64,000 nucleotides of DNA, from positions 23,529 through 87,528 of the IMG/VR virus record IMGVR_UViG_3300010397_000043; one strand, given 5' to 3'. Numbering within the stretch: the stretch's first letter is position 1; each line of letters opens with the position of its first letter. The notes under the pieces are model-generated. The model did not search any database. It was not told the DNA's origin and was given only the letters and a program-made list of their open reading frames with translations. The stretch is from a virus. The position numbers and the translations under genes were made by a program. Positions 7,091 through 57,739 of the stretch are shown here, piece after piece.

Positions 7091-7632
7091 CACTGCACCA
7101 TGCGGGGCGGCAAGCCAGACGCACCGGCCAGCAGGCTATCGTCACCGTCGTCGCCGTCTTCGTTGATCTGTTTGGCGGCGCTCGTGGCGTTTTTCTTCTT
7201 TTGCTGCTGAGCCTTGTCGTTGTCAATGTCAAACCGGGAGGTCGGCTGCGCACGCAGCTTCGTGGACAGCGACATCAGCCGGGTCTCGGCGATGCTGCGC
7301 ACCACGATCTTGGGGTTCACGACCATGTCCCCCTTGGCGTTCTCGATGAGGTCGCCTTCTTCCTGAATCTGCTTGTCCAGCCGGTCGATATCTGCCGCCG
7401 CTCGGCAGTACAACTTCAAAAGCGGGTGGTCGCCCTTGTTGAAGTAGTCGTGCGGCTTGGAATTTACAAGCTCACACCAGTACTTCTTATGTGCTTCGGG
7501 CAGGCCCGGCGGGAACGGGTAGACAGGCACGTCGGGATTGGCCTCGATCTCAAGCGCGGCCTTCAATTCTGTGCCTTTACGATCCCCATAGGTCCCAGCC
7601 TTCTTGGCGGGCGTTTTCTTGGCGGCGGGCAT
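7090..7632 (-). CDS. terS: Terminase small subunit, P27-like
   Basis: 180 residues. The N-terminus is basic (AAKKTPAKKAG), then helical segments with HKKYWCELV, and NPKIVVRSIAETRLMSLSTKLRAQPTSR, the conserved end of the P27 (Terminase_4) family. It recognises the packaging site and recruits the large subunit. The tail is Lys/Asp-rich. Position directly before terL supports the call. Confidence 0.85.
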   Translation of the reverse strand: MPAAKKTPAKKAGTYGDRKGTELKAALEIEANPDVPVYPFPPGLPEAHKKYWCELVNSKPHDYFNKGDHPLLKLYCRAAADIDRLDKQIQEEGDLIENAKGDMVVNPKIVVRSIAETRLMSLSTKLRAQPTSRFDIDNDKAQQQKKKNATSAAKQINEDGDDGDDSLLAGASGLPPRMVQ

Positions 7633-12049: not shown

Positions 12050-12916
12050 TTACTCCTCGCCGGTAACGATAACGCGCATCTCGTAGCTGACTTGCGAAAG
12101 CGCAGCCGCGAGTTCACGGGTTTGGTAGCTCTCCATGCCGTTCGACATGAACCCGCCGTCAATGAACACTTCGTACTCCTCGTACATCGTCTCGATGCGC
12201 TGCCCCGTAATGCTCTTTCGCACGTCGAGCACTGAATGCTTGGCGACGCAAACCACGCACTCCTGCAAGTCTGGGTTCATGACAACCGCACGAACGATGA
12301 CTTCCCGCTTTGGCAGCGCAGCGCCGAACTTCACATCGCAGCGGGCCTTCACCTCGTCGGCGATGCCCTGCGCTATGCCGTCGTCGAAAGCGGCCCAACA
12401 CTCATCGGCGTCGTCGCGGCTGTTGAACTCGTGTGCCGTGAACTCGAATGGCGTGAAGCTGCGGTCGCACTCTTCGCTGGCATTCGCGCTGTCAATTACG
12501 AATTCTTCGACGGCTTCCCTGTCACGCAGATCGTAGGCACTCCCATCGGCGTAGCTGGTGACACATTCGCCGATGACGGGGATGTCCTGCCCCGACGCCA
12601 TGTTGCGACCGCGCGTGTACCCGCGCAGCCGGCACTCTTCGTAGTAGGCCTGCTGTTCAGCAGTGGGCCCACACGGCACCGTCCCCCACCCCCCGCTCTC
12701 GTCGCTGTTCTCGTACGTCCCGTCGTCTGCCAACTCGTCTTCGAAGCGCACGGTCACCTTGTCGTCGAAAATCAGGCCGAACGTCTCAGCGAGTTGCTTG
12801 CGAATGCTTTCAAGGTGGTCGCGGTCTTGGTACTCGAATTCCTCGAAATCAACCGTCGCGCTCAGGGCGTTAATGCCAGTCGTGGGGTCGCCCCGGCCAT
12901 TGATGTAAACCTTCAT
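12050..12916 (-). CDS. 288-aa acidic hypothetical protein
   Basis: Largest gene of the cluster, with GAAGGAG before the ATG. Strongly acidic, with Cys residues and a C-terminal segment YEEYEVFIDGGFMSNGMESY. No named domain; nucleic-acid mimicry or a scaffold role cannot be distinguished. Confidence 0.65.
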   Translation of the reverse strand: MKVYINGRGDPTTGINALSATVDFEEFEYQDRDHLESIRKQLAETFGLIFDDKVTVRFEDELADDGTYENSDESGGWGTVPCGPTAEQQAYYEECRLRGYTRGRNMASGQDIPVIGECVTSYADGSAYDLRDREAVEEFVIDSANASEECDRSFTPFEFTAHEFNSRDDADECWAAFDDGIAQGIADEVKARCDVKFGAALPKREVIVRAVVMNPDLQECVVCVAKHSVLDVRKSITGQRIETMYEEYEVFIDGGFMSNGMESYQTRELAAALSQVSYEMRVIVTGEE

Positions 12917-21403: not shown

Positions 21404-21799
21404 ATGGATATCGAGCGGCTTCAAGAACTGCGGCGCGTCATCGTCGAAACGCCCGACGAGCGTGTTGACCTCAATGGCTGGGCGCGGTCGTGCGGCACCA
21501 TCGCCTGCGTGCTCGGCTGGGCCTGCAAACACCCGCCGTTCGTGGCCGAGGGACTGCACCTGTTCGAGGACGAGGGCGCGTACACGCCTTGCTTCGGCAA
21601 TTTCATCAACTACGAAGCGGGCGGGGAGTTCTTCCGCCTGTCGTACCCCGACGCCGAATTCCTGTTTGGGCCGCGTTCGTGGGGCGACGCCACGGGCCGC
21701 GCCGACATCACCGACAAGCAATTGGCCCTGCAGCGCATCGATGAACTGCTGGGCACGCGCCGCAGCCCGTACACCGATTGCTTTCCCTGCGACGACTGA
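21404..21799 (+). CDS. Tandem paralogue 1 (CGTIACxLGWAC family)
   Basis: 131 residues, CTGGAGG before ATG. Family plan seen in all eight genes: an N-terminal ERL..LR.VI..TPDE..D helix, a central CGTIACVLGWAC with invariant Cys and GW, then G..F....G..FF.L....A..LF and a C-terminal D.DKQ.AL.R.D.LL helix. The C..C spacing could bind metal. Resembles phage hypothetical proteins with a CGTxACxxGW motif; function unknown. This copy is the most divergent (KHPPFVAEGL instead of xVPEFQAAGL) and ends in a CFPCDD tail. Confidence 0.75.
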   Translation: MDIERLQELRRVIVETPDERVDLNGWARSCGTIACVLGWACKHPPFVAEGLHLFEDEGAYTPCFGNFINYEAGGEFFRLSYPDAEFLFGPRSWGDATGRADITDKQLALQRIDELLGTRRSPYTDCFPCDD

Positions 21800-21839: not shown

Positions 21840-22274
21840 ATGCACCTCGACCGACTCAAGACCCTGCGCGACCTGATGGCGGCGACGCCCGACGACAAGA
21901 TCGACATGAACTACTGGCGGCGCGAACCCGGCGCCATCTTCGACCCCAACACTCTCAATGCACCCACGTGCGGCACCGTGGCCTGCATGCTGGGCTGGGC
22001 GTGCATGAACCCTGAGTTCCAGACCTTGGGCCTGCACTTTGAGCACGACAGCGTTTCGTTGTACCCGGAGTACAACGGCAGGTCTTCTGCCGGGGCCGGT
22101 GCTGAGTTCTTCGATCTAGAACCCAAGATCAGTCGTCTGCTGTTCGACGCGGCTTCTCGTCAGGAACTGGCGGAGCGCGGCTCGCACAAGGCTGTCGCAC
22201 TGGCCCGGCTCGACGAACTGCTCGAAACGGGCACGCTCCACGACCCCGACTACTACGATCCCAGTGGCGACTGA
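21840..22274 (+). CDS. Tandem paralogue 2
   Basis: 144 residues. HLDRLKTLRDLMAATPDD start, TCGTVACMLGWACMNPEF centre, GAEFFDLEPKISRLLF, then KAVALARLDELLETG. It has an insertion before the CGT motif (FDPNTLNAP) and lacks the D.TDKQ segment of other copies. Confidence 0.75.
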   Translation: MHLDRLKTLRDLMAATPDDKIDMNYWRREPGAIFDPNTLNAPTCGTVACMLGWACMNPEFQTLGLHFEHDSVSLYPEYNGRSSAGAGAEFFDLEPKISRLLFDAASRQELAERGSHKAVALARLDELLETGTLHDPDYYDPSGD

Positions 22275-24108: not shown

Positions 24109-24543
24109 ATGAATACCGAACGACTCAAGACCCTGCGCGACGTGATTGCCGCAACACCAGATGACTACGTGGACCTCTCGTGGTGGCAGCAGTCCGGCGA
24201 CTGCGGCACCATCGCCTGCATGCTCGGCTGGGCCTGCGAAGTGCCTGAATTTCAGGCAGCGGGTTTGCGCATGGAGCACTACCCGGGCTACGGCGACGCA
24301 TTCCCTACGCTCGACCAGAAATTCGGCTACGAGGCCGGCGCGGCGTTCTTTGGGCTGGACTACGCAGACTCGGCGATGCTGTTTTGCGGGCGGGGCTGCA
24401 GGTTCAGCACCGAGAATGACGACCGCACGGACAAACAAGTCGCGCTCGACCGGCTCGACCATTTGCTCACGTATGGCAACTTCACTGCCATGCGGTTCGC
24501 CAGTCGTCCCACCACCAAGCCCCGTTACTGGAGCCAGCCATGA
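24109..24543 (+). CDS. Tandem paralogue 7
   Basis: 144 residues. NTERLKTLRDVIAATPDDYV, DCGTIACMLGWACEVPEFQA, GAAFFGLDYADSAMLF, DDRTDKQVALDRLDHLLTYG. Stop overlaps the start of paralogue 8. Confidence 0.75.
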   Translation: MNTERLKTLRDVIAATPDDYVDLSWWQQSGDCGTIACMLGWACEVPEFQAAGLRMEHYPGYGDAFPTLDQKFGYEAGAAFFGLDYADSAMLFCGRGCRFSTENDDRTDKQVALDRLDHLLTYGNFTAMRFASRPTTKPRYWSQP

Positions 24544-24965
24544 ACATCGAACGACTCAAGACCCTGCGCGACGTCATCGCAGCGACACCCGACGAGGTGG
24601 TGGACCTGGACCGCTGGCAGTTGACCAAAGACTGCGGCACCATCGCCTGCATTCTTGGCTGGGCCTGCGAAGTGCCTGAGTTTCAGGCAGCAGGGCTCAA
24701 GCTGGTCCCCCACCAAGGCAACCCAGCGCGTTGGGTGCCCGAGTATGACCTGATGTACCGTGAGTTCCGGGCGGGTGCCAAGTTTTTCGGCCTGTCGTCG
24801 GACACTGCACGTCTGCTATTCGGCCAGCGGGCGGCGGACCTCGATACCGAAAACAAAAGGACTGGCGACGTGCGCACAGATCGGGAAGTTGCATTGGACC
24901 GGCTCGACCATTTGATCAAGCACGGCAACTTCAACGCGCTGTTGCCGGAGTGGCTGCACGAGTAA
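24540..24965 (+). CDS. Tandem paralogue 8
   Basis: 141 residues. NIERLKTLRDVIAATPDEVV, DCGTIACILGWACEVPEFQA, GAKFFGLSSDTARLLF, VRTDREVALDRLDHLIKHG. Closest to paralogue 7 over the central motif. End of the array. Confidence 0.75.
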   Translation: MNIERLKTLRDVIAATPDEVVDLDRWQLTKDCGTIACILGWACEVPEFQAAGLKLVPHQGNPARWVPEYDLMYREFRAGAKFFGLSSDTARLLFGQRAADLDTENKRTGDVRTDREVALDRLDHLIKHGNFNALLPEWLHE

Positions 24966-38489: not shown

Positions 38490-41414
38490 ATGGCCCTGGA
38501 CCTCGACTTCGAGACTTTCTGCGAGCTGAACGTCCGCACGGTGGGCGCGTACCGGTACGCCAGCCACCCAAGCTGTGAAGTGCTGGTGTTGTGCTACTCC
38601 ATTGACAACGGGCCGGTGCGCCGCTGGGTGCCCTACGCCGATGGCCCGGACGCACCCCCGCGCCCGCTGCCCAGGGCCCTGCGCCGCTACATCGAGGACA
38701 CCGATGGTGAGCTGATCGCGCACAACAGCCAGTTTGAAATGTGCATCTGGCATTACGTGATGGAGCGGCTGCACGATGCCCCGCCCATCGCGCCGCATCG
38801 ATGGGTATGCACTGCGGCCATGGCGGCGGCATGCGGCTTGCCCCGTAGCCTGGACGGTGCAGCGATGGCGATGCAGTTGCAGCACCAGAAGAACAAGGAA
38901 GGCGCACGACTGCTCAACATCTTCGCCAAGCCGCGCAAGCCCACGAAGCTGAACAAGGCGACCCGCACCTACCCCTGGGACCGGCCCGACGAATTCGAGA
39001 AGCTGTGCGAGTACTGCGAGGACGACGTTCGTGCCGAGGCCGAGCTTTATGAGCGCCTGCCGAAGCTGTCCAAGTACGAGCGCCGGGTGTTCGCCAAAGA
39101 TATTGAGATGAACAGCCGTGGCCTGCCGCTGGACGTGCGGGCCGTGAAGACCGGGTTTCGCCTGCTGACCGAACTGGAGCGGCGGAACAAGAACCGTGTC
39201 GAGCAGTTGACCGGCGGTATACGTGCCACGCAGCGCGACAAGATGCTGGAGCATTTCAAGTCGCTGGGCGTCGAACTGGAAAACCTGCAGGCCAAGACGA
39301 TCCGCGACCTGATTACGGCCCAGAAGGAAATACTGCCTGACGCGGCGGTCGAGCTACTGCTGCTGCGGATCGAGGGCGGCAAGGCTTCGACCAAGAAGCT
39401 GAAGAAGATGCTGGAGGTCATGCTCAAAGACGGGCGTGTCCGAGGTGCCTTCCTGTACTGGGGTGCGCACTGTGTACCCGGGGATACCGAAGTGCTGACC
39501 CGTAGCGGCTGGGTGCCTATCAAAGACTGGGATGGCAAGAGTGAGATCGCGCAAGTAAACGAGCAACTCGAAACACAGTTCTTGCCCGGCAAGAAATTTG
39601 TCGGCCCAGTAGCAGATCGCTGGCTTCAAGTACGAACGGAGATGTTTACGGGGGACTTTACGCTCGGGCACACGATGCCATACTTCCATAAACACAACGG
39701 TTCCTTCCAGTATGAAAAAGCTGGTGTGTTCGCCACTCGGGCCCGTCGCAGTGTCCCCGTATCTACTGTTATGCCTAGCACCGGTGCGTTGAACGCAGTG
39801 CAGATGCGTGTGCTAACAATGGTCCAGGCCGATGGGCACTTCGCCAAAGGCAAGAACCAGGGCATGCTCCTCTTTACGTTCAAAAAAGAACGGAAGATCG
39901 AACGCTGTCAGAAACTTCTTGCGGAAGCTGGTATACCGTGTCGGGTGCGTGGCCCATACGCGAGCGGCAACGTGGCTGTGAAGATAAGCCGAAAAGACGT
40001 TCCGCATTGGCTAACCGAAGAACGTAAATCGTTTGGCCCATGGGTACTTGATAGTACCCCTGCGGCTCGACTTGCATTGATCGAAGAGGCAGCGTTCTGG
40101 GATGGATGTACCGACCCGCGCAACGAGTTCTTTTCGTACAGCTATTCAACTACGGACCCTGTAAGTGCCGAGTGGCTGCAGACGGTAGCGCATTTGACTG
40201 GGTACAGGTCTTCAATTACGATGCGTGATCGCGGACGCGAAGGCTGGAAGGATTCCTATCGAGTACATGTCTGGCAAGGTAATAGTGCTGACGTCCGTGA
40301 ACATCACATGGCTGTTGTTACCGAAAGGCGTAAGACGTACTGCGCAGAAACGCAGACTGGGTATTGGCTTGCTAGACACAACGGTCATATATTCGTTACT
40401 GGGAATACGGGCCGGTACGCCGGCAAGCTAATCCAGCCGCAGAACTTCACGCGCGGCGAGTACACGCCGTATCAGCAGTGGCTGCTGTTCCAGCACCTGA
40501 TGTCGGGCGATGCCGACGTGATGCAGTGGGCGTACCGCTGGCCCATTGACGCCATCGCTCAGGCCATGCGCGGCTTCGTACGCGCACCCCGGGGCAAGAA
40601 GTTTGTCGTGGTGGACTTTAGCGCCATCGAGGCGCGAGTCCTAGCGTGGATCGCGGGCGAAGAGAAGACGCTCAACCTGTACCGCCTGGGTGCGGACCTA
40701 TACAAGCGATTGGCTGTGAAGCTGTATAAGCTGAACAGCGAGGCCGAGGTGCAGGACTGGCAGCGCAAGTTCGCGAAGGACCTGTTCCTCGGCGCGGGCT
40801 ATCAGCTCGGGTGGGCCGGCTTCGTCAAGCAATGCTTCATGCGTGGCATCGTGGTCGATCCCGAAGAGGCCAAGGCGGCTATCAAAACTTACCGCGACGA
40901 CAATCCCAATATCGTGCGGCTTTGGTATGACGTGGAGCGCGCTGCCGTGCGTGCAGTCGAGATTAGCGCGACACGCACAAGGCCTGTAAAATTGTGCAAA
41001 TTGCACTTTTACTGCGACGACGTATGGTTCTGCATCCGCCTGCCCAGTGGTCGCGTGCTTCGGTACGTGTACCCGCGAATCGAGCATGGCGAGCGATTCG
41101 GCAAGCCGGTCAAGAAGCTTACATACCGTAGCGAGTTTAAGGGCAAGTGGATTCGAGAATCGACGTATGGCGGTAAGCTGGTCGAAAACCTTGTCCAGGC
41201 TATCGCACGCGATTTGATGGTTAACGCATGGTTTAACGCAGAGGACGAAGGTTACGAAGTGATTGGGACGGTACACGACGAGCTGATTACCGAGGTAGAC
41301 CGGGACTTCGGTAGCCCGCACGAGCTTGAGGAAATTCTTCGGCGCAAACCCGACTGGGCCGACGATGCTCCGATCAATGCCGAGGGGTGGGAAGGTGTTC
41401 GATACCGCAAGTAG
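38490..41414 (+). CDS. Family A DNA polymerase containing an intein
   Basis: 974 residues as translated; 662 after removal of a 312-residue intein (residues 328-639). The N-terminal 3'-5' exonuclease has LDFET (5-9), IAHNSQFE and YCEDDVRAE. The polymerase domain has the TGRYAGKLIQPQN primer-binding motif right after the intein, motif A VVVDFSAIEAR (Asp709), motif B AKDLFLGAGYQLGW, and motif C TVHDELI (His929-Asp930-Glu931). All catalytic residues are present. No obvious Shine-Dalgarno precedes the ATG. Confidence 0.93.
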   Translation: MALDLDFETFCELNVRTVGAYRYASHPSCEVLVLCYSIDNGPVRRWVPYADGPDAPPRPLPRALRRYIEDTDGELIAHNSQFEMCIWHYVMERLHDAPPIAPHRWVCTAAMAAACGLPRSLDGAAMAMQLQHQKNKEGARLLNIFAKPRKPTKLNKATRTYPWDRPDEFEKLCEYCEDDVRAEAELYERLPKLSKYERRVFAKDIEMNSRGLPLDVRAVKTGFRLLTELERRNKNRVEQLTGGIRATQRDKMLEHFKSLGVELENLQAKTIRDLITAQKEILPDAAVELLLLRIEGGKASTKKLKKMLEVMLKDGRVRGAFLYWGAHCVPGDTEVLTRSGWVPIKDWDGKSEIAQVNEQLETQFLPGKKFVGPVADRWLQVRTEMFTGDFTLGHTMPYFHKHNGSFQYEKAGVFATRARRSVPVSTVMPSTGALNAVQMRVLTMVQADGHFAKGKNQGMLLFTFKKERKIERCQKLLAEAGIPCRVRGPYASGNVAVKISRKDVPHWLTEERKSFGPWVLDSTPAARLALIEEAAFWDGCTDPRNEFFSYSYSTTDPVSAEWLQTVAHLTGYRSSITMRDRGREGWKDSYRVHVWQGNSADVREHHMAVVTERRKTYCAETQTGYWLARHNGHIFVTGNTGRYAGKLIQPQNFTRGEYTPYQQWLLFQHLMSGDADVMQWAYRWPIDAIAQAMRGFVRAPRGKKFVVVDFSAIEARVLAWIAGEEKTLNLYRLGADLYKRLAVKLYKLNSEAEVQDWQRKFAKDLFLGAGYQLGWAGFVKQCFMRGIVVDPEEAKAAIKTYRDDNPNIVRLWYDVERAAVRAVEISATRTRPVKLCKLHFYCDDVWFCIRLPSGRVLRYVYPRIEHGERFGKPVKKLTYRSEFKGKWIRESTYGGKLVENLVQAIARDLMVNAWFNAEDEGYEVIGTVHDELITEVDRDFGSPHELEEILRRKPDWADDAPINAEGWEGVRYRK
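39471..40406 (+). mobile_element. Intein with LAGLIDADG-type endonuclease, in the polymerase TGR motif
   Basis: Starts at Cys328 (CVPGDTEVLTRSGWVPIKDW, splicing block A) and ends GYWLARHNGHIFVTGN before Thr640 (+1). Removing it joins GAH to TGRYAG, the conserved family A motif. The middle contains MVQADGHFAKG and EEAAFWDGCTDP, two dodecapeptide-like motifs of a homing endonuclease. The penultimate residue is Gly, not His, a known variant. The insert is visibly less GC-rich than the flanks. Confidence 0.93.
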
Positions 41415-45954: not shown

Positions 45955-46265
45955 GCACCACACTCCAGACGCTACCAAACAACCAGCAGGAAATGCTGCG
46001 CCTATGTGCGCTGATTGAAGACAAGGCCAAAGCCGAGGCAAGGCGGCGCAACGGCGCTTCCGACTGGTATGGCGACGGCAATACGCCCGAGAGCGTTGCG
46101 CCTGCAGAGATGGCGCTCGTGAAGCTGGTGCGCGCTACGATGACGAACACGTTGTTCCAATACGAGGCATGCGAGAAGCACAGGCACTTGCCAATCACGC
46201 TTCGGGTAACCTGCGTGCCGCCCATAAACGTGGTGTGTCCGCACTGTCTGGAGGGAAAGCCATGA
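45951..46265 (+). CDS. 104-aa hypothetical protein
   Basis: Helical start (EMLRLCALIEDKAKAEARRR), then CEKH and CPHC near the C-terminus, which could form one zinc site. Overlaps both neighbours by four bases. Confidence 0.58.
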   Translation: MSTTLQTLPNNQQEMLRLCALIEDKAKAEARRRNGASDWYGDGNTPESVAPAEMALVKLVRATMTNTLFQYEACEKHRHLPITLRVTCVPPINVVCPHCLEGKP

Positions 46266-47179
46266 GCACGCTCGACCTGGGGCCCTTCGTGCCCGAGCGC
46301 ATCGACGAGTGGGCGTACTGGTGCAAGGCCCGCGAGCAAATCCGGCGTCGCCGCGAAGCCGGCAAGCCTCCGCCCTGGCACAGCGACCCAGTGATGGCAA
46401 CGACCCGCTGGTGTAACTGCAAACGCATGAACGATAAGGTGAGCGTTTGGCTCATGCAGAACTGGTACACGCCCGGGTCCATGAACCGACGCGACGCGCT
46501 GATCGCAGCGTTGATGGCGCGCATGATCAACAGAACGGACACGCTGGCGTACATGAACAGCGGCGACCCTTACGCTAGGTGGGACTACGATAAGTTCTAC
46601 AAGCGCATGTATGAGTTGAAGAACGAAGGCTTCGTTGTGTTCACGAACGCATACATCATCAACGGCGCGAGCGGCGGGCCCAAGATTGACCAAGTGCTCG
46701 GGGCCATCGACAAGGCAGCGAAGATGATGGGCAACGACCGCAACGCATCGCGCTTCGTGGACCCCGACAGCCTGCAAATTACCGCTGGTAATCTGCACGT
46801 GCTTCCCGGGGTCGGCAGCTTCATCAGTGGGCAAGTCGTGGCGGACCTGCGCTGGGTGATTGATACCGACCGCTGGGCCGACCGCATGACCTGGGCCCCG
46901 CCTGGGCCGGGTTCGTCGCGGGGCATGAAGTACCTGCTGGGCCAAGTGAGCGCCGAGGGCACCGTCGGGCGTGGAAAGGACATGGGCGAGCGCGAGTTTC
47001 TGAAGCACCTGCGCTTGCTTGTCCGCATCGCCGAGCGGCACAATGTGGTGGGGCCGATTTTTGCCGAGCGGCAACTCGAAGCGCACGACATTCAAAATAC
47101 GTTGTGCGAGCTGAGTAAATACATTCGGGTGAGCTATGGCCTGGGTCGGCCCAAGAACTTCTACCATGCCAAGGAATAG
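46262..47179 (+). CDS. Hypermodified-thymine pathway protein (aGPT-pyrophosphorylase / 5-hmdU kinase helical family)
   Basis: 305 residues. The N-terminal pattern ERIDEWAYWCKAREQIRRRR then EAGKPPPWHSDPVMATTRWC NCKR matches the F..F...R..IR.RR..G.P.PWT.DP.....RFCN..R signature I associate with this phage family (Pfam names HMUDK_hel / aGPT-Pplase). Later NAYIINGASGGPKIDQVLGA and PGVGSFISGQVVADLRW continue the all-helical, glycosylase-like domain. These proteins act on 5-hydroxymethyluracil in DNA. It contains palindrome site 9 in its coding sequence. Confidence 0.72.
   Translation: MSTLDLGPFVPERIDEWAYWCKAREQIRRRREAGKPPPWHSDPVMATTRWCNCKRMNDKVSVWLMQNWYTPGSMNRRDALIAALMARMINRTDTLAYMNSGDPYARWDYDKFYKRMYELKNEGFVVFTNAYIINGASGGPKIDQVLGAIDKAAKMMGNDRNASRFVDPDSLQITAGNLHVLPGVGSFISGQVVADLRWVIDTDRWADRMTWAPPGPGSSRGMKYLLGQVSAEGTVGRGKDMGEREFLKHLRLLVRIAERHNVVGPIFAERQLEAHDIQNTLCELSKYIRVSYGLGRPKNFYHAKE
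46778..46792. promoter_or_regulatory. Palindrome site 9 (ATTACCGCTGGTAAT), intragenic
   Basis: Exact arms within codons for LQITAGNLHV. The only copy inside a gene; it could act as a roadblock or partition-type site rather than a classical operator. Confidence 0.6.
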
Positions 47180-47183
47180 ACCA

Positions 47184-47330
47184 ATGGAACGCGACGATGA
47201 CGCCTACTTTGCCGGGCGCGCTGCCTGGGAGGACGGGCTGGACGAAAGCGCAAACCCGTACCCAGAGCGGTCGGACAAGTTCCTCGACTGGAACGACGGG
47301 TACAACGACGCAGCCGACGAAGAGGAGTAA
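47184..47330 (+). CDS. 48-aa RMF-like small protein
   Basis: DDDAYFAGRAAWEDGLDESA NPYP then FLDWNDGYNDA. The A...G..AW..G...NPYP...W..GY layout resembles ribosome modulation factor-type peptides. ATG at 47166 is an alternative start. Acidic, unlike true RMF, so function is uncertain. Confidence 0.55.
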   Translation: MERDDDAYFAGRAAWEDGLDESANPYPERSDKFLDWNDGYNDAADEEE

Positions 47331-47333
47331 CCG

Positions 47334-47600
47334 ATGTCCATCTGTACCATTTGCCACACCAACACGATCCCGGGTGGCCGGTCGCGCTACTGTGCCACGT
47401 GCGCTTCGGACGACCAGGACAAGTTTGACACACGGGTCATGGAGAAGGCCACTGCCGCCCCGCCCCTGGACCTGCCCGACGACAACCTGGACGACTTGAT
47501 TACGGCACACACCACAGCGCACGGCCACGCGCCGACCGGGGATGCCGAGCTTCGGGCCTTCGCCCGCGCTGCCATCAACGCTGACCGTACACGGGGGTAA
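47334..47600 (+). CDS. 88-aa zinc-ribbon protein
   Basis: ICTICHTNTIPGGRSRYCAT CAS: two CxxC pairs. The rest is acidic and helical. Unknown role. Confidence 0.58.
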   Translation: MSICTICHTNTIPGGRSRYCATCASDDQDKFDTRVMEKATAAPPLDLPDDNLDDLITAHTTAHGHAPTGDAELRAFARAAINADRTRG

Positions 47601-47602
47601 TC

Positions 47603-47875
47603 ATGTGGTGGAGCACCAACGCGAAGACCCCCGTGCCGGGAATGCGTGCTCGGACGAACGTGGAACTGTTGCCCCCGCCTGTGAACATCCCGCCGATGCC
47701 CGGTGTACGCGAGGCGATCCCACAGCTTCTCGAAGCTGGCAAGGCGATTGGGCGAGGGATTGATGCGTGGAACCCAGCGCAGGTTGAAGACGCCATTCGA
47801 TCCGCGCGGTTTTTCATGGAACGAGCTGAGCGCGCCCTCGAAGTGGGCCGACCCAAGACCGAACCCAAGGAGTAA
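47603..47875 (+). CDS. 90-aa hypothetical protein
   Basis: Pro-rich N-terminus (VELLPPPVNIPPMPG), then helices (REAIPQLLEAGKAIGRGIDA). Unknown. Confidence 0.52.
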   Translation: MWWSTNAKTPVPGMRARTNVELLPPPVNIPPMPGVREAIPQLLEAGKAIGRGIDAWNPAQVEDAIRSARFFMERAERALEVGRPKTEPKE

Positions 47876-47877
47876 TC

Positions 47878-48498
47878 ATGATCGACGACTTTTTCCCGCT
47901 GGGTGTGCCGACCAACCGACTGGCCGCAGACCCGAACGAAATCCCTGCCTGGGTCAAGCCCGAATTGCGGGCCCGCATCCTCGCCGCCCGCAAGGACCGC
48001 GAGCCCATGCGCTACACACCGCCGTGCGCCTTGGAGGCAGAAGCCGCGAGTGTGAAGGCGGCGATGACTGCACTCATTGACTATGCGCTCAGGGGGCTCG
48101 GGCCTGTGACGCTCGAAGAGACAACGGCGATCATAAAGGCCAAAGAAAAGTCGGCAGTAGAGTCCTTCACTGCCCTCAACGGTGGGCCCAAGAGCTTTGC
48201 TACTGGTGGGGTGGTAACGATCAGGGCATTCGGGACTATAGCCGAAGAGCCCAAAGCGGGGCGCGGCTTCACCCAGGTGACCGGGCGTGCCAGATACGCA
48301 GCACCTTTAGTCCGCCGCGTCGGCTGGTGGCAGACCTCGCCCAATTACATGCGCTATTGGGATGGGGAGACATTCTCCTTTCCGCGCGAGATCGATGACT
48401 ATGGCGCGTGTTTGTCCGCGGCTACGGTAGAAAGCACGTGCAGTGTCCCCCGCGTTGAGAACATGGTCCATCAGTACGAGAACTTCATCGGGGAATGA
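47878..48498 (+). CDS. 206-aa hypothetical protein
   Basis: IDDFFPLGVPTNRLAADPNE, then a long helix (AEAASVKAAMTALIDYALRG) and a C-terminal part with GWWQTSPNYMRYWDGETFSF. No recognised family; lies inside the base-modification region but without evident enzyme motifs. Confidence 0.55.
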   Translation: MIDDFFPLGVPTNRLAADPNEIPAWVKPELRARILAARKDREPMRYTPPCALEAEAASVKAAMTALIDYALRGLGPVTLEETTAIIKAKEKSAVESFTALNGGPKSFATGGVVTIRAFGTIAEEPKAGRGFTQVTGRARYAAPLVRRVGWWQTSPNYMRYWDGETFSFPREIDDYGACLSAATVESTCSVPRVENMVHQYENFIGE

Positions 48499-48501
48499 GC
48501 C

Positions 48502-48762
48502 ATGGCGACCAAAGAAGACGTGCGCCACGCACTCACGCTCGTTGCCGACAGTCGCCAGCGATTCATCGCGGCTGTCGGGTACGCGATCAGTAAAGCCAAG
48601 ACCGAATTCGAGGCAGAGACCGGGCTTGTGATTACTGACGTGGACGTTGTCATCAGCTCGTACCAGTATGTTAGGGATTACACAGCCAGCTCAATCCTGT
48701 CGAACGTCGCCATTCGTACCAACATCGAAAGGGCCAGTCATGGCACGCCACAAAGCACCTGA
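48502..48762 (+). CDS. 86-aa hypothetical protein
   Basis: TKEDVRHALTLVADSRQRFI, then FEAETGLVITDVDVVISSYQ. Helix-helix-strand. The 3' end overlaps the next gene by 23 bases. Confidence 0.55.
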   Translation: MATKEDVRHALTLVADSRQRFIAAVGYAISKAKTEFEAETGLVITDVDVVISSYQYVRDYTASSILSNVAIRTNIERASHGTPQST

Positions 48763-49570
48763 CCCCGATACGCTCGACTCGTGGCAGAAGTTCACGGCCA
48801 ATCTGTTTCCGAGCTACGACGCGGACCCGGGGTACTACGCCATTCAACTGGCCGAAATAACCGAGGCGCAGAAGCGCCGACTGGCGGTGGCGTGGACTTC
48901 GTTTTACCAGCTAGGTCACGCGGCCAAGGCCAGCGAGTATGAAGGGGCGCAGTTCTACCACTACCTGCATTCCGTGTACCCCACGGCGCAGCGGGGCAGC
49001 GAACGACGGCACTTCCGTGGCGAGCAGGGGTTGCGGGCGCTGACAGAATGGCAGGCCAAGTTTAATCATCCGGAAAAGATGGCGTGGTACATCTGTGAGA
49101 ACTCGCACTCGTACTCCGATGTACGCAAGAAGACAGACACCATCCGCTCATACGGCGACTATTTCGCATGGAAGTGGTGCGACTTGGCCGAGGTGCTGTA
49201 CGGTACGACTATCGACTTCACGGGCGCTGAGGACAGGTCGCCCAAGGTGCCACAGCAAGGCGCGAAGCTGATCGCGCCCGATTTCACGGTGGCACAGACA
49301 TACGACATGATCGCCAAGCGTGCCCGAGCAAAGGGCGTGCGCTCGCCGGCCAATCTTGGTCGCGAGTTTGGCATTGGCGAGGCGGAGACGGTGTGCTGCG
49401 TCTACAAGCAATACCGGTCCGGCTCATATGTGTACGGTTCGCGGCTGGCAAAGGCAGTCGCGCGCCTGGAAAGCGTGCCCAGCAAGACCGGGCGCAAGCT
49501 GACCGAAGCACTTCTAGGAGTATCACCGTGGACGAGAGACGAGCTAAAGGGAATACTCGCAAGCCTTTAA
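48740..49570 (+). CDS. Second hypermodified-thymine pathway protein (ADDT / aGPT-pyrophosphorylase clade 2-like)
   Basis: 276 residues. LAVAWTSFYQLGHAAKASEY followed by EGAQFYHYLHSVYPTAQRGS and ERRHFRGEQGLRALTEWQAK: the tA..SEY.G..F...L....P....ERR.FRG pattern resembles the amino acid:DNA transferase clade of this superfamily. The C-terminal half has HTH-like helices. It would add the side group to activated hydroxymethyl-thymine. The assignment is by motif memory only. Confidence 0.58.
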   Translation: MARHKAPDPDTLDSWQKFTANLFPSYDADPGYYAIQLAEITEAQKRRLAVAWTSFYQLGHAAKASEYEGAQFYHYLHSVYPTAQRGSERRHFRGEQGLRALTEWQAKFNHPEKMAWYICENSHSYSDVRKKTDTIRSYGDYFAWKWCDLAEVLYGTTIDFTGAEDRSPKVPQQGAKLIAPDFTVAQTYDMIAKRARAKGVRSPANLGREFGIGEAETVCCVYKQYRSGSYVYGSRLAKAVARLESVPSKTGRKLTEALLGVSPWTRDELKGILASL

Positions 49571-49782
49571 TCAACGTCGCCATCTTCTTGCGAAAGGCGC
49601 TGGCTCACGGTCACAAAGCAGAAGTCAAGCACTTGGTGTTGCCAGTAAAGGTGCTCGATCACGCCATGCTGGTGCTAAACGCCGCTGAGCAACTTGTCGC
49701 TATGCGTGCGGACGGCAACTGGTCGGACAAGCAGATCGTTGATTACATGGCCGGCGTACTGCTCGAAGACATGGAGGACTAG
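49528..49782 (+). CDS. 84-aa hypothetical protein, GTG start
   Basis: TAGGAG before GTG at 49528, inside the previous gene. KPLINVAIFLRKALAHGHKA and DHAMLVLNAAEQLVAMRADG; all helical. Confidence 0.52.
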   Translation: MDERRAKGNTRKPLINVAIFLRKALAHGHKAEVKHLVLPVKVLDHAMLVLNAAEQLVAMRADGNWSDKQIVDYMAGVLLEDMED

Positions 49783-49783
49783 C

Positions 49784-50053
49784 ATGGTCACGAAGAAAAC
49801 GCCTGATGTGTCGCGCCAAGACAAGGTGCTCGATGTACTGCGGGGCTCGGGGCGCAAGCCGCCCAAGCGTGCCGGTACACAGATCGATTGCTACGTTTAC
49901 GAGGAAGGCACGTACACGATCCAGATAAACCGTCGGGTCATCGCGCAGGGCACGGGTGGCATGGTGCGAGCACGCAATCACGTGCAGAGCATCGTGAACA
50001 ACCTGCGACCCCCGCAGTCGAATAACTACACAGTCACGTACTACGAGGTGTGA
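49784..50053 (+). CDS. 89-aa hypothetical protein
   Basis: KKTPDVSRQDKVLDVLRGSG then CYVYEEGTYTIQINRRVIAQ. Basic; alpha plus beta. Unknown. Confidence 0.53.
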   Translation: MVTKKTPDVSRQDKVLDVLRGSGRKPPKRAGTQIDCYVYEEGTYTIQINRRVIAQGTGGMVRARNHVQSIVNNLRPPQSNNYTVTYYEV

Positions 50054-50055
50054 CC

Positions 50056-50271
50056 ATGGGTATCATCGTCGGCAATGAACCGCCGATTACGCACGAGGAG
50101 ATAATGCTCCTTGCTGACGCATTCGAGCGTTCTGCGAATTGGCTTGAACACGGAGTTCTAGCCGGGCCAGCCAGAACGCACCCGCTGGTTGGGTTGGCCG
50201 ACTACCGCAGGGCTTGCCTGATACTGCGCACTGCCGCCTGGGTGTGGGCATCGTCGAACACCGAAGGGTAG
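50056..50271 (+). CDS. 71-aa hypothetical protein
   Basis: GIIVGNEPPITHEEIMLLAD, then AFERSANWLEHGVLAG and DYRRACLILRTAAWVWASS. Helical; unknown. Confidence 0.53.
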   Translation: MGIIVGNEPPITHEEIMLLADAFERSANWLEHGVLAGPARTHPLVGLADYRRACLILRTAAWVWASSNTEG

Positions 50272-50277
50272 ATGCCC

Positions 50278-50325
50278 ATTACCGCTGGTAATTTGTAACC
50301 GGCGCAGGCCATTACCGCTGGTAAT
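50278..50325. promoter_or_regulatory. Palindrome sites 10 and 11 in tandem (ATTACCGCTGGTAAT)
   Basis: Two identical exact copies at 50278-50292 and 50311-50325, 33 bases apart (about three helical turns), so dimers could bind the same DNA face. TTGTAAC follows the first copy as at site 1. They lie just upstream of the HNH gene. Confidence 0.78.
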
Positions 50326-50351
50326 CTGGTTCAACATTCAGGGAGACGAGT

Positions 50352-50906
50352 GTGACCGAAGTGTGGCGAGAAGTGCCGGGCGACCGCCTGGGGCTCGAAG
50401 TGAGTTCACTGGGCCGACTACGCAGGCCGGCGACAACTAGTGCGGCGGGCAGTAGGCTAAAGGCGCGGGAACTCGCACAGACCATTGATGGTGAAGGGTA
50501 CGTGCGAACTTCCGCGTCTGCGACTTGCGGGGTCGTATACGTTCACAGGCTTATCGCACTGGTTTTTATCGGCCCACCACCGACACCAGCACACACCGAC
50601 GTCAACCATAAGAATGGTATAAAAACCGACAACCGGTGGCAAAATCTAGAATGGGCTACGAGAAAGCAGAACATGCAGCACGCAGTTAGTATGGGGTTGG
50701 CCCCTCGTGGTGAACAAAATGGCCGGGCGAAGATGTCAGCGTACACAGCGATGACGGTCTACTGGCACTATCACGTCGGGGGTGCGACTCAAGCTGCTCT
50801 GGCGCGGGATTTCGAGCTGACGAGAAACCAAGTTCGTGGGTTAATCCACGGCAAAACTTGGAAACACGTCACAGATAAATTTCCTGAATGGGGGTACGTG
50901 TCATGA
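50352..50906 (+). CDS. HNH homing endonuclease with NUMOD4-like start
   Basis: 184 residues, GTG start, GGGAG upstream. VWREVPGDRLGLEVSSLGRL (NUMOD4-like), VYVHRLIALVFIGPPP, DVNHKNGIKTDNRWQNLEWA (HNH core with H-N), then a C-terminal HTH (TQAALARDFELTRNQVRGLI). Free-standing homing nuclease. Sits directly upstream of, and overlaps by four bases, the P-loop kinase gene. Confidence 0.88.
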   Translation: MTEVWREVPGDRLGLEVSSLGRLRRPATTSAAGSRLKARELAQTIDGEGYVRTSASATCGVVYVHRLIALVFIGPPPTPAHTDVNHKNGIKTDNRWQNLEWATRKQNMQHAVSMGLAPRGEQNGRAKMSAYTAMTVYWHYHVGGATQAALARDFELTRNQVRGLIHGKTWKHVTDKFPEWGYVS

Positions 50907-51502
50907 TCTTTCAACTCAGAGGGACCAGTGGTAGCGGCAAGAGTACTGTCGCCCGCCACCTATTTAACTGCTTTGACTGTCAACCGGTGCGCTACGTAGA
51001 CGACAAGCGCAAGAAGGTTCTTGTCTACAAAGGGTACGTGGATGACGTGCCATTCTTCATGCTGGGGGACTACGCGCCCACGCGCAGCGCCCCGGGGTGT
51101 GACACGATACCCAAGATCAGCACACTGACCGACTTGGCAATACAGTACGCCAACAAGAACGATGGCCGCAGCATCGTGTTCTTGGAAGGGCTTTTGGCCG
51201 GGCATTCCTGGGGTGAGCTTGGCGAGCGGCTGCACCCGGCTTTCGGGCACCGTTACGTGAACGCATTTCTCGACACGCCCGTGGAGCGCTGTCTCCGGCG
51301 CGTGCTAAAGCGGCGCGAAAGCAAGGGGACCGAAACCCCGCCTGAACGCCTTGCGAAGATTTCGCAAAACGTGCAGGACGACTACCATCGTGTCGAGCTT
51401 TGCTATGACCGCGTAATCGCACGCGGCGGGTTTCGCATAGATGTGCCGTGGCGCGGTGCCCCCGAGTTTTGCGAGCGGTACATTTCGGGTAACGCTCCAT
51501 AG
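50903..51502 (+). CDS. P-loop kinase, candidate 5-hydroxymethyl-deoxyuridine DNA kinase
   Basis: 199 residues. Walker A GTSGSGKST (7-15), then RSIVFLEGLLAGHSWGEL and AFLDTPVERCLRRVLKRRES, a LID-like Arg cluster, as in small-molecule and nucleic-acid kinases. In hypermodified-thymine phages a P-loop kinase phosphorylates hydroxymethyluracil in DNA. Placement between the two pathway proteins and the thymidylate-synthase-like gene supports that role, which is inference. Confidence 0.65.
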   Translation: MIFQLRGTSGSGKSTVARHLFNCFDCQPVRYVDDKRKKVLVYKGYVDDVPFFMLGDYAPTRSAPGCDTIPKISTLTDLAIQYANKNDGRSIVFLEGLLAGHSWGELGERLHPAFGHRYVNAFLDTPVERCLRRVLKRRESKGTETPPERLAKISQNVQDDYHRVELCYDRVIARGGFRIDVPWRGAPEFCERYISGNAP

Positions 51503-51506
51503 CAGT

Positions 51507-51535
51507 TTGTTCTTAGCCGGACGTCCGGCTAAAAT
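51507..51535 (+). promoter_or_regulatory. Promoter with 20-bp palindromic operator in the spacer
   Basis: TTGTTC, 17 bases, TAAAAT. A perfect palindrome TTAGCCGGACGTCCGGCTAA (51513-51532) fills the spacer and enters the -10, an ideal repressor or MerR-like activator site for the following gene. Confidence 0.75.
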
Positions 51536-51571
51536 GGGGGCTCCACCTACCCCACACGGAGCCCCTACAAA

Positions 51572-52633
51572 ATGCACACGATCTATGCAAAAGACGTGGA
51601 CAATGCCCTGGCCCAAGGCATCAACCTGCTATACAACGTCGGCACCACGCAGGACACCCGCAACGGCCCCGCCGTTGTTTGCCCCACCCCCGTCGCCACC
51701 ATTTACCTGAGCCCGCGCCATCGTGTGCTGCTCAACCCGGTACGCGACGCCAACCCGTTCTTCCACCTGATGGAGTCCTTCTGGATCATCGCAGGCCGGT
51801 CGGACGTTGCCTTCCTCTCGCAGTTCGTCAAGCGCATGGCCGAGTTCAGCGACGACGGCAAAGTGTTCCACGCACCTTACGGGCATCGCCTGCGCTACGC
51901 TCAGGGGTTCGATCAGCTCAGCTCGGTCGTTGCCCACCTGTCACGCGACAAGCACAACCGGCAGGCTGTGCTGCAAATCTGGGATGCCACGATGGACCTC
52001 GACGCCCAGACGAAGGACAAGCCCTGCAACGACCTGATCTTCTGCCGCACGGATCGCGGCGTGCTCGACATCACGGTCTGCAACCGCAGCAACGACATCA
52101 TCTGGGGTGCCTACGGGGCCAACGCCGTGCAGTTCAGCGTGCTGCAAGAGTACCTCGCCGCGCGCATCGGCATTCCCATGGGCGAGTACACCCAGTTCAG
52201 CTTCAACTATCACGCCTACGAATCGAATGCCTACTGGAAGCAGGCCCGCGAGGTGATCGAGCACGACCCGAAAGCCCACTGGCGCAACGGCTATTCCTAC
52301 CAGGGTGTGCAGCCGACCCCGCTGTTCACGCCCCACACGGTCGATGCTGTGGAAGCCGACATCATGGTCATGCTGCAAGTCTTCGACGCTTACACCGGCA
52401 TCACGCCTTTCGGCTGGATCGACCGGCTGCTCAGCGTGCAATGGCACAGCGATCTGTTCGACCGGTTCGTCGTGCGCTACCTCGCGGCATACGCGGAATA
52501 CAAGCACGGCGATCTGCAGGCTGCGATGGGCCTGCTGCGCACGATCAACGACGCGACCGGCTTCGAGTGTGACTGGGCCAAGGCCGCGACCATCTGGATT
52601 GCCAACCGGGAGACGACTCGTGCAGCGGCTTAA
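51572..52633 (+). CDS. Thymidylate-synthase-family enzyme, probably dUMP hydroxymethylase
   Basis: 353 residues. NPFFHLMESFWIIAGRSDVA, RQAVLQIWDATMDLD, catalytic Cys152 in DKPCNDLIF, CNRSNDIIWGAYGANAVQFS (phosphate-binding Arg172-Ser173 and Asn184 in the position that selects uracil over cytosine) and FNYHAYESN. Canonical enzymes make dTMP; the phage base-modification branch makes hydroxymethyl-dUMP. The context of kinase and pyrophosphorylase-like genes favours hydroxymethylation. Own regulated promoter upstream. Confidence 0.82.
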   Translation: MHTIYAKDVDNALAQGINLLYNVGTTQDTRNGPAVVCPTPVATIYLSPRHRVLLNPVRDANPFFHLMESFWIIAGRSDVAFLSQFVKRMAEFSDDGKVFHAPYGHRLRYAQGFDQLSSVVAHLSRDKHNRQAVLQIWDATMDLDAQTKDKPCNDLIFCRTDRGVLDITVCNRSNDIIWGAYGANAVQFSVLQEYLAARIGIPMGEYTQFSFNYHAYESNAYWKQAREVIEHDPKAHWRNGYSYQGVQPTPLFTPHTVDAVEADIMVMLQVFDAYTGITPFGWIDRLLSVQWHSDLFDRFVVRYLAAYAEYKHGDLQAAMGLLRTINDATGFECDWAKAATIWIANRETTRAAA

Positions 52634-53150
52634 ACTCCTTCGCCTCGGCGGGCAAGTGCGCCGCTGGCACACGTGGCCCATGCACCGCCAGCAGACGGTG
52701 GCCGAGCATTCGCATGGGGTCGCCGTGCTCGTGACCATCGTCGAGCCCAATGCGAGCGCGGAGCTTTTGCAGGCTGCGCTATTCCACGACATCAGCGAGG
52801 CCGTGACTGGCGACGTACCCTCCACCGCCAAGTGGGCATACCCCGAGGTGCGGGCGGCGCTGAACGCGGCCAGCATGGATATCGAGCAGAAGGCTTGCCT
52901 GCGCATGACGCTTACCGTTCACGAGCAGAACGTGCTGCGCTGGTGCGACATGGCTGAGCTTGTGCTGTTCGCCCTGGAGGAGTGGTACGGCGGCAACTAC
53001 AACGCTCGCAAGGTCGTTGAGAATGGCATGGGCTGGCTGCGTGAACACGAAGCCCCGACCATCGCCGCCGAAGAGTTGCGCGCATTCATGTGGCAAACGC
53101 AAAGTAATTTCCACGATGGAGTATTTGAGTATGCAGACCAAGGCGAATGA
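52620..53150 (+). CDS. HD-domain 5'-nucleotidase (YfbR-like)
   Basis: 176 residues, GTG start overlapping the previous gene by 14 bases (GGGAG site). RRWHTWPMHRQQTVAEHSHG (metal His30), LFHDISEAVTGDVPSTAKWA (His56-Asp57) and CDMAEL (final Asp) are the HD metal ligands. Such enzymes dephosphorylate deoxynucleoside monophosphates. Next to the hydroxymethylase it may remove host dTMP so that modified precursor is used. Confidence 0.8.
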   Translation: MQRLKLLRLGGQVRRWHTWPMHRQQTVAEHSHGVAVLVTIVEPNASAELLQAALFHDISEAVTGDVPSTAKWAYPEVRAALNAASMDIEQKACLRMTLTVHEQNVLRWCDMAELVLFALEEWYGGNYNARKVVENGMGWLREHEAPTIAAEELRAFMWQTQSNFHDGVFEYADQGE

Positions 53151-53730
53151 CATTCAGCACGGCGGCTCGCACTACAAGAGCAAGCTGCAGCACTGGGACT
53201 GGCTGGTGGAACTGGGCTACGGCTGGGAGTACTTTTGCGCGGCGTCGAGCAAGTACCTTGTGCGGCATCGCCAGAAGAATGGCCTGCAGGACGTGCAGAA
53301 GGCGCGGCACTATCTGGAAAAACTGCTGGAGCTTGTGCAGGCCGGCAAGGTGCGACTGCCCAACGCCATGATGAACCGTGGGCAGGCCGAGCTGACCGAC
53401 GAGTTCTTCGATGCGAACCCCAGCATCGGCGCACAGGAGCGGGTCGCCATTGTGTTCATGCGCTACCCGACCGACTGCCACGAGTTGAAGGCGGCGATTG
53501 GCATCATCAAGGCCATCGAGGCGACCTACCCCGAGCCAACCCAGGGCCTGACCGCACTCGACTTCGTGAGTGAAGGGCATACCGCCCACACCGATCACTG
53601 GCAGTGCAGGCGTTGCCGGGCGCACCTGGACGTGCCCGCGAACACTGACCCCTCGCAGCACCACAAGTGCCTGACCCGTGACTCGGGCGTGCCGGGCGGT
53701 GGGTACGTCGATCAAGCCAAGGACATCTGA
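53131..53730 (+). CDS. DUF3310 (T7 gp1.7-like) nucleotide kinase with C-terminal zinc-like motif
   Basis: 199 residues. GGSHYKSKLQHWDWLVELGY, GWEYFCAASSKYLVRHRQKN, and GLQDVQKARHYLEKLLELV give the HY...Q..D......KYL.R...K.G..D..KA..YL pattern of DUF3310, the family of T7 gp1.7. Residues 160-185 hold CRRCRAHLD and HHKC, a possible zinc site. It could phosphorylate modified dUMP. Confidence 0.75.
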   Translation: MQTKANDIQHGGSHYKSKLQHWDWLVELGYGWEYFCAASSKYLVRHRQKNGLQDVQKARHYLEKLLELVQAGKVRLPNAMMNRGQAELTDEFFDANPSIGAQERVAIVFMRYPTDCHELKAAIGIIKAIEATYPEPTQGLTALDFVSEGHTAHTDHWQCRRCRAHLDVPANTDPSQHHKCLTRDSGVPGGGYVDQAKDI

Positions 53731-56382: not shown

Positions 56383-56458
56383 GCCCCTGTAGCTCAATTG
56401 GCAGAGCAGCGGATTTCAAATCCGAGGGTTGCAGGTTCGAGACCTGTCGGGGGCGCCA
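56383..56458 (+). tRNA. tRNA with UCA anticodon (UGA decoding, Trp- or suppressor-type)
   Basis: Complete 76-nt cloverleaf: acceptor GCCCCTG with CGGGGGC, D-stem GCTC/GAGC, anticodon arm GCGGA-TTTCAAA-TCCGA, T-loop TTCGAGA, discriminator G, encoded CCA. Bases 34-36 are TCA (56416-56418), which reads UGA. The G discriminator fits tryptophanyl-tRNA synthetase. Position 33 is the normal U. The G27-A43 pair is a mismatch, as in the interrupted tRNA at 38.2 kb. Confidence 0.88.
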
Positions 56459-56747: not shown

Positions 56748-56806
56748 AGGGGCACTGGGCCGAACAGTCGGTCTAGTGCCCTTAACTCTTTATGGAGCAA
56801 GCAACC

Positions 56807-57739
56807 ATGGCACCCACCCACGTTGATCATGCCGTGCGGCAAATGACCATCGGCAACACCGCCGTTCTGCGCAACCCGGCGCTGGACCCCATCGACGACA
56901 AGCAACTCAAGGCCTTCGCCCCGACGATCTTCGCGAAGGGCGGCATTCCCGGGGTCAGCGAGAAGTACGGCTTCGTGAACACGAAGCTGGTCATCGATGC
57001 GATGCGCGATTCGGGCTTCGAGGTTGTGGAAGTTCGCCAGTCGAGCAAGCGTGGCGAAGACGCCGCCGAGCGGATGAAGTTCACGAAGCACATGATCAAG
57101 TTCCGGCAGGCCGGCAAGCTCAAGAAGGTCGGCGACGTGGTGCAGCAGATCGTCATGCTCAACTCGCACGACAGGTCGAGTGGCTTCCAGTTGTATGGCG
57201 CGCTCTTCCGGCTGCTCTGCGAGAACGGTCTTCTGGTCAGCGAGTCCGAACTGGTCGAGCCCATTCGCGTGCCCCACACCATTCGGCTGGCGGCGGACGT
57301 GATCGAGCGGTCGAAAGAACTTGTTCGCGGGGCCGACGGTGTGTTCCGGCTGCGTGACGAGATGCTGGGCATCGAACTCTCGCCCCGCCAGCAAACGGCG
57401 TTCGCCACGCACGCGCTGGAGTTCCGCCCGCCGCGTCGCTCCGGCATTCTCGAGCCGGCCCAACTGCTCGAACCGCGTCGCCCGCAGGACGACAAGCCCG
57501 ATCTGTGGCACGTGTTCAACCGCGTGCAGGAAAACATGCTGCGCGGTGGCAACAGCACGGTCACTGCCGAGGGCCGCACGGTACAGACCCGGGGCATCGG
57601 GCGAATCGAGCGCGACGTGGAGGTCAACACGCGCCTGTGGTCGCTGGCCGTGCAGACCATCGCCAAGGCTGCGAAGTCGAGCAAGGCGGCGGTCAAGGCC
57701 AAGAAGCCCAACACGGTCGATTCCCTGCTCGATGCGTAA
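56807..57739 (+). CDS. DUF932 family phage/plasmid protein
   Basis: 310 residues. EKYGFVNTKLVIDAMRDSGF, KRGEDAAERMKFTKHMIKFR, VQQIVMLNSHDRSSGFQLYG and LFRLLCENGLLVS, then a helical second half ending NTVDSLLDA. This matches the DUF932/DUF945 proteins of phages and plasmids. Exact function not known to me. Its own promoter suggests early expression. Confidence 0.8.
   Translation: MAPTHVDHAVRQMTIGNTAVLRNPALDPIDDKQLKAFAPTIFAKGGIPGVSEKYGFVNTKLVIDAMRDSGFEVVEVRQSSKRGEDAAERMKFTKHMIKFRQAGKLKKVGDVVQQIVMLNSHDRSSGFQLYGALFRLLCENGLLVSESELVEPIRVPHTIRLAADVIERSKELVRGADGVFRLRDEMLGIELSPRQQTAFATHALEFRPPRRSGILEPAQLLEPRRPQDDKPDLWHVFNRVQENMLRGGNSTVTAEGRTVQTRGIGRIERDVEVNTRLWSLAVQTIAKAAKSSKAAVKAKKPNTVDSLLDA

Follow-up and report, generated by a model that had tools for sequence, protein, structure and literature searches.

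The stretch of virus DNA analysed here (the window, 64,000 nucleotides) covers bases 23529-87528 of a virus record 87.5 kb long. It comes from a tailed phage whose minus strand encodes a capsid protein of the HK97 type and the two terminase subunits. Four genes with complete reading frames lie on the plus strand, all inside positions 46262-52633. They encode a helical protein of the HMUDK_hel (aGPT-Pplase1) family, an amino acid:DNA transferase (ADDT, or aGPT-Pplase2), a P-loop kinase and a dUMP 5-hydroxymethylase of the thymidylate synthase (TS) family. Because each was identified by profile and synteny, and the ADDT also by its fold, these four features identify the window as a predicted member of the thymine-hypermodification pathways that proceed through 5-hydroxymethyldeoxyuridine (5hmdU). 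An earlier account made from the letters alone, the sequence-only reading, had placed the set within 6.4 kb and described it as a TS-family enzyme with the uracil-selecting Asn, a P-loop kinase, and two proteins resembling the pyrophosphorylase and amino acid:DNA transferase families. Its frames and coordinates were correct, and all four proteins exceed their Pfam cut-offs. It had also suggested a hidden Markov model (HMM) search, in which a lack of matches would speak against the pathway; the gene at 46262 matches HMUDK_hel and that at 48740 matches ADDT.

Hydroxymethylase, kinase, helical protein and transferase

Pfam matches were judged against the bit cut-off of each family. The hydroxymethylase (51572-52633, 353 aa) matches PF00303 (4.5e-16; 59.2 bits, cut-off 24.3) and phrog_5131 (346 bits), and is 41% and 38% identical to gp51 of phage PaMx11 and gp58 of phage M6, respectively. 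In an alignment with E. coli ThyA, Cys152 corresponds to C146 and Asn184 to N177, the residue of uracil selection; Glu68, Arg172, Ser173, Asp175, His214 and Tyr216 are also kept, while the IWDEW motif of the E. coli enzyme is not retained. Three residues before the cysteine (Cys-3), Asp149 replaces ThyA Leu143. An Asp at Cys-3, which is Leu in TS, activates water for hydroxymethylation and is part of the hydroxymethylase signature (PMC6400193). This Asp is common to the enzymes of M6, PaMx11, Pam3, P26218 and all aligned relatives, and the M6 and PaMx11 enzymes also have the Cys and the uracil-selecting Asn. We assign the protein, on these sequence features, as a hydroxymethylase and not a plain TS.

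The kinase (50888-51502, 204 aa) has the Walker A sequence GTSGSGKST and matches the 5hmdU DNA kinase profile PF18748 (HMUDK_HMUD1; 5.1e-7, 29.8 bits, cut-off 27). It is homologous to PaMx11 gp49 (35% identity) and M6 gp54 (26%), the latter scoring 65 bits against the same profile, and the P-loop, GxY, D and EG motifs are common to all three. GenBank and PHROGs annotate this family as 'terminase small subunit'. We rejected that label for the kinase, as the true terminase subunits are encoded on the opposite strand, at 5489-7093 and 7090-7632; the assignment corrects a common mislabel.

The helical protein (46262-47179, 305 aa) matches PF18723 (9e-42; 143.8 bits, cut-off 25), shares 29% identity with PaMx11 gp50 and contains the helix-hairpin-helix (HhH) motif LPGVGSFISGQVV. 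Its start is backed by a related contig, L010, whose protein has the same beginning (GPFVPER). The model of the protein (mean predicted local distance difference test score, pLDDT, 87.6) gave as its top VIA match PaMx11 PUGT (Z 10.7, root-mean-square deviation (rmsd) 4.4 over 230 residues), followed by queuine-salvage DUF2419 proteins and 8-oxoG glycosylases at Z 9.6-9.8. Among the latter, M. jannaschii Ogg (Z 9.7, rmsd 3.9, 179 residues) is tied with DUF2419. The modelled protein thus resembles an HhH DNA glycosylase and would serve the 5hmdU DNA kinase as its helical partner. As these Z values are middling, base flipping is suggested here as a possible role.

The ADDT (48740-49570, 276 aa) matches PF18724 (5.3e-20; 72.6 bits, cut-off 26.2) and phrog_6364 (2e-54). 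Its model (pLDDT 89.3) matches gp46 of PaMx11, the 5-phosphomethyl-dU glycinyltransferase in PDB entry 8z2n, with a Foldseek E value of 1.5e-10 and a VIA Z of 28.1 (rmsd 2.3 Å over 253 residues); the next, unrelated match has a Z of 8.0. The sequence of PDB 8z2m is identical to PaMx11 gp46. This fold match supports, at the level of the model, a reaction in which an amine attacks the phosphorylated hydroxymethyl base in DNA. The gene is intact and keeps the residues that are invariant across its clade. When 14 cellular genomes were scanned as controls, neither the HMUDK_hel nor the ADDT profile exceeded its cut-off in any of them, so that the occurrence of both within 3.4 kb is not due to chance.

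Intervening genes and related loci

Several other genes lie among these four. Between the ADDT and the kinase, a free-standing NUMOD4/HNH endonuclease gene (50352-50906, plus strand; PF13392, 1.7e-13; phrog_59, 2.8e-39) is a homing-type insertion outside the pathway; further HNH genes are found near the polymerase genes of relatives. Between HMUDK_hel and the ADDT, five small open reading frames (ORFs) occupy positions 47136-48762 of the plus strand (starting at 47136, 47334, 47603, 47878 and 48502), and none of the five matches a Pfam family above its cut-off. A comparison of the 47878-48498 ORF (206 aa) with 50,697 phage records gave no match. The only matches that intervening ORFs found elsewhere were a weak one between the ORF at 49784 and a small gene away from the core in the related locus L024, and general HNH similarity.

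A search of IMG/VR for ADDT relatives returned nothing with a single-sequence query and succeeded with an alignment query, giving 25 loci. Nearly all have the order helicase, ADDT, kinase, (helical protein), hydroxymethylase, HD, DUF3310, and in relatives none of the window's intervening ORFs accompanies the core. In the nearest relative, the 61-kb contig L012, the core is almost back to back and free of them: the helical protein ends at 10921, the ADDT begins at 11140, the kinase at 12222 and the hydroxymethylase at about 13281. The order free of tailoring genes is conserved in L012, L014, L019 and the complete genomes of P26218 and MW202557. Lacking recognisable families and conservation with the core, the intervening ORFs were rejected as pathway genes and are best read, from their sequences and distribution, as lineage-specific or mobile additions. 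The proposal in the sequence-only reading that they may define a new modification is therefore not upheld.

The helical protein varies among relatives. HMUDK_hel has no match anywhere in the complete genomes NC_029061 (L006) and MW202557 (L007) despite their ADDT, kinase and hydroxymethylase, so these phages may do without the helical partner or use a replacement. Two short contig fragments, L010 (1-7207) and L011 (1-4782), carry the helical protein, kinase and hydroxymethylase side by side and have no ADDT on the contig where the window and L012 have one.

Search for tailoring enzymes

Six-frame tblastn was run with tailoring proteins from M6, PaMx11 and Pam3, namely those of the pyridoxal phosphate (PLP), radical S-adenosylmethionine (SAM), Nmad5, flavin adenine dinucleotide (FAD) and acetyltransferase types. 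They matched their home clusters, and nothing in the full record, the complete P26218 and MW202557 genomes or 28 related loci. Pfam PALP (PF00291), Pyridoxal_deC and DAO (PF01266) are absent from the record, PaMx11 being positive for PF01266, and the radical-SAM, PALP and DAO profiles found nothing in the relatives tested. The sole radical-SAM match in the record is sub-threshold (15.6 bits) and lies inside the SNF2 helicase. Since the genuine M6 radical-SAM enzyme also falls under the profile cut-off, this negative rests mainly on tblastn with the M6 and Pam3 proteins. Most of the plus-strand proteins encoded near the cluster were also scanned against Pfam, and no other tailoring candidate came up.

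Neither the radical-SAM and PLP enzymes that mark the M6-type 5-NedU pathway nor the FAD-dependent lyase and acetyltransferase that stand beside the ADDT in the PaMx11-type 5-NmdU pathway were found, and by this tested absence the phage belongs to neither tailoring subtype. Putrescinyl thymine, which the sequence-only reading had listed among the bases of known phages with such enzyme sets, finds no backing either, as no PLP decarboxylase was found in the record. Of that reading as a whole, the thymine-hypermodification pathway stands, and a novel modification set by intervening genes finds no support.

A proposed pathway and its alternatives

What the analysis shows directly is which enzyme families are present, in what order they lie, and that known tailoring genes are missing. 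The individual reactions and a protective role would follow those of homologues in M6, PaMx11, ViI and PhiW-14, of which the PaMx11 transferase has been solved. By this analogy, the TS-family enzyme would produce 5-hydroxymethyl-dUMP, which would be converted to the triphosphate and then take the place of T in DNA synthesis. Once the DNA has been replicated, 5hmdU would be flipped out of it by the helical protein and phosphorylated on its hydroxymethyl group by the kinase. With the ADDT, a free amino acid would then displace the phosphate through its amino group and give an N-alpha-aminoacyl-methyl uracil. As none of the known phage tailoring enzymes (radical-SAM, PLP, FAD or acetyltransferase) comes after this step, the adduct itself would be the end product, shielding the DNA from nucleases. 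Phages with 5hmdU-derived bases are resistant to restriction chiefly at TG/TC sites (PMC6449724). We consider it likely that the phage has such a minimal, tailoring-free pathway, ending in an unprocessed N-alpha-aminoacyl thymine. It would represent a known kind of DNA protection in a simple form that recurs across a clade of relatives. Known phages with the core enzymes reportedly convert some of their thymine to an amino-acid-decorated base. SP8 DNA is an example of DNA that contains 5hmdU.

The amino acid is a separate matter. In the ADDT tree, the window protein groups with those of L012, L014, L019 and the P26218 group, apart from the M6/PaMx11/Pam3 enzymes and from PhiW-14. The M6, PaMx11 and Pam3 enzymes have in common an insert ahead of the RGxERRH motif, which the window clade and PhiW-14 lack. 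Glycine is our leading guess by analogy, since the relative with a solved structure transfers glycine: it may be the single likeliest amino acid, but not likelier than all others combined. It is conceivable, at somewhat worse than even chances, that the window clade uses a different amino acid and leaves it unprocessed, yielding a thymine adduct not yet described. The amino acid used by each phage was taken from PDB titles, PMC5977210, PMC6449724 and general background. No ADDT match was found in phages phiNIT1 and Grass. The ADDT of SP10 is of the glutamyl-thymine type.

A few observations weigh against the proposed pathway or its details. The kinase scores barely above the cut-off of its profile. 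In the window hydroxymethylase, Ala stands in place of the Ser of the Ser-x-Tyr signature of the T4 enzyme; since M6 and PaMx11 have Gly there, this part of the signature seems not to apply to the dU branch. Glycine is a tentative substrate, given that the ADDT sequence falls in a clade separate from the glycine clade. The virus contig may be a fragment, with a tailoring gene outside the record, and a host enzyme or an unrecognised phage enzyme could process the adduct, an unknown enzyme type being one that would escape our searches.

Such processing, by a product of the ORFs at 47136-48762 or 49483-50271, by an enzyme encoded elsewhere in the phage, or by the host, would yield a novel base. 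Several intervening ORFs without a profile would leave room for it, the 206-aa ORF in particular being enzyme-sized, but none is conserved next to the core in relatives, and L012 and the P26218-like phages keep the core without them; we regard this outcome as unlikely. The pathway might also stop early, with an inactive or accessory ADDT and DNA containing 5hmdU or its phosphate, as the ADDT-free gene groups of L010 and L011 would allow. These are mere 7.2- and 4.8-kb fragments, however, and the window ADDT is intact, with its clade-invariant residues kept and a superposition on the PaMx11 enzyme at Z 28, which makes an early stop very improbable. Least credible of all, and in our estimate hardly worth entertaining, is ordinary nucleotide metabolism, that is, a plain TS among unrelated genes with the kinase as a terminase small subunit. 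The label in PHROG and GenBank speaks for it; against it stand the genuine terminase subunits on the opposite strand, the score of M6 gp54 with the 5hmdU kinase profile, and Asp149, the lost IWDEW motif and the linkage to ADDT and HMUDK_hel, which disfavour a plain TS. The minimal pathway ending in the aminoacyl adduct remains our preferred interpretation.

Genomic context

Two further genes follow the hydroxymethylase on the plus strand. An HD-domain YfbR-like 5'-deoxynucleotidase (52620-53150; PF12917, 7.9e-13; 32% identical to PaMx11 gp52) has a GTG start at 52620 and overlaps the hydroxymethylase stop. A DUF3310 protein (53140-53730, the C-terminal part of the ORF 52960-53730; PF11753, just above the cut-off) matches PaMx11 gp53, M6 gp61 and P26218 gp18 and is the conserved last gene of the module. 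Both genes are likewise found 3' of the hydroxymethylase in M6 and PaMx11. A little downstream of the module, a DUF932 protein (56792-57739) is the best conserved neighbour, at 64-67% identity in L010 and L012.

The replication block comprises a nuclease, an Enc34-type single-stranded DNA-binding protein, DNA polymerase A, a VRR-NUC endonuclease and an SNF2 helicase, in an order that agrees with P26218 and MW202557. The DNA polymerase A ORF (38490-41414) has a 312-aa in-frame insert at about 39471-40406 that begins CVPGDTEV, matches LAGLIDADG_3, ends HIFVTGN before a Thr and is missing from the P26218 and MW202557 polymerases; it is a candidate intein whose penultimate residue, Gly, is non-canonical. 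The ORF 32017-33402 matches P26218 gp04 and the ParB-like protein of MW202557. ParB-like proteins have also been found with other phage DNA-modification clusters (PMC11955845, PMC12783734).

Elsewhere in the window, four similar ORFs of 131-144 aa (21404-21799, 21840-22274, 24109-24543 and 24540-24965) have related N-termini with the pattern RLxxLRxxxxxTPDxxxDLxxW and form an apparent tandem paralogue family. ARAGORN called a tRNA with anticodon TCA (SeC type) at 56383-56458, which may read UGA or may be a false positive.

Comparison with known systems

The cluster of Pseudomonas phage PaMx11 (gp46-gp53) contains, like the window, homologues of the ADDT, kinase, HMUDK_hel, hydroxymethylase, HD and DUF3310 genes. 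It differs in gene order, and next to its ADDT lie an FAD enzyme, gp47, and an acetyltransferase, gp48, that were not found in the window phage. The 5-NedU cluster of Pseudomonas phage M6/YuA (gp51-gp61) likewise shares the core enzymes and the downstream HD and DUF3310 genes, whereas its PLP enzyme gp52, radical-SAM enzyme gp53 and Nmad5 were not found in the window phage. Delftia phage PhiW-14, which makes alpha-putrescinylthymine, has HMUDK_hel as the window does, but its ADDT, 26% identical, lies on a separate branch. The putrescinyl base of PhiW-14 takes label from C5 of ornithine and not from C1 (PMC5977210).

One replication module, made up of polymerase, endonuclease, SNF2 helicase, ADDT, kinase, hydroxymethylase, HD and DUF3310 genes, is shared by the window with P26218 (a cultured freshwater isolate whose Rhodoferax host is IMCC26218), with MW202557 from Manatee Spring and with the IMG/VR loci L012-L037. 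Their ADDTs are 37-48% identical to that of the window, and no tailoring genes were found in them. L012, L014 and L019 have HMUDK_hel, like the window, whereas P26218 and MW202557 have no detectable copy. Hydroxymethylase, kinase and ADDT are thus found without a known tailoring enzyme in two complete genomes and several contigs. Where tailoring is absent, the amino-acid choice of the ADDT would be directly readable from virion DNA, and in P26218 a cultured phage exists for such a reading.

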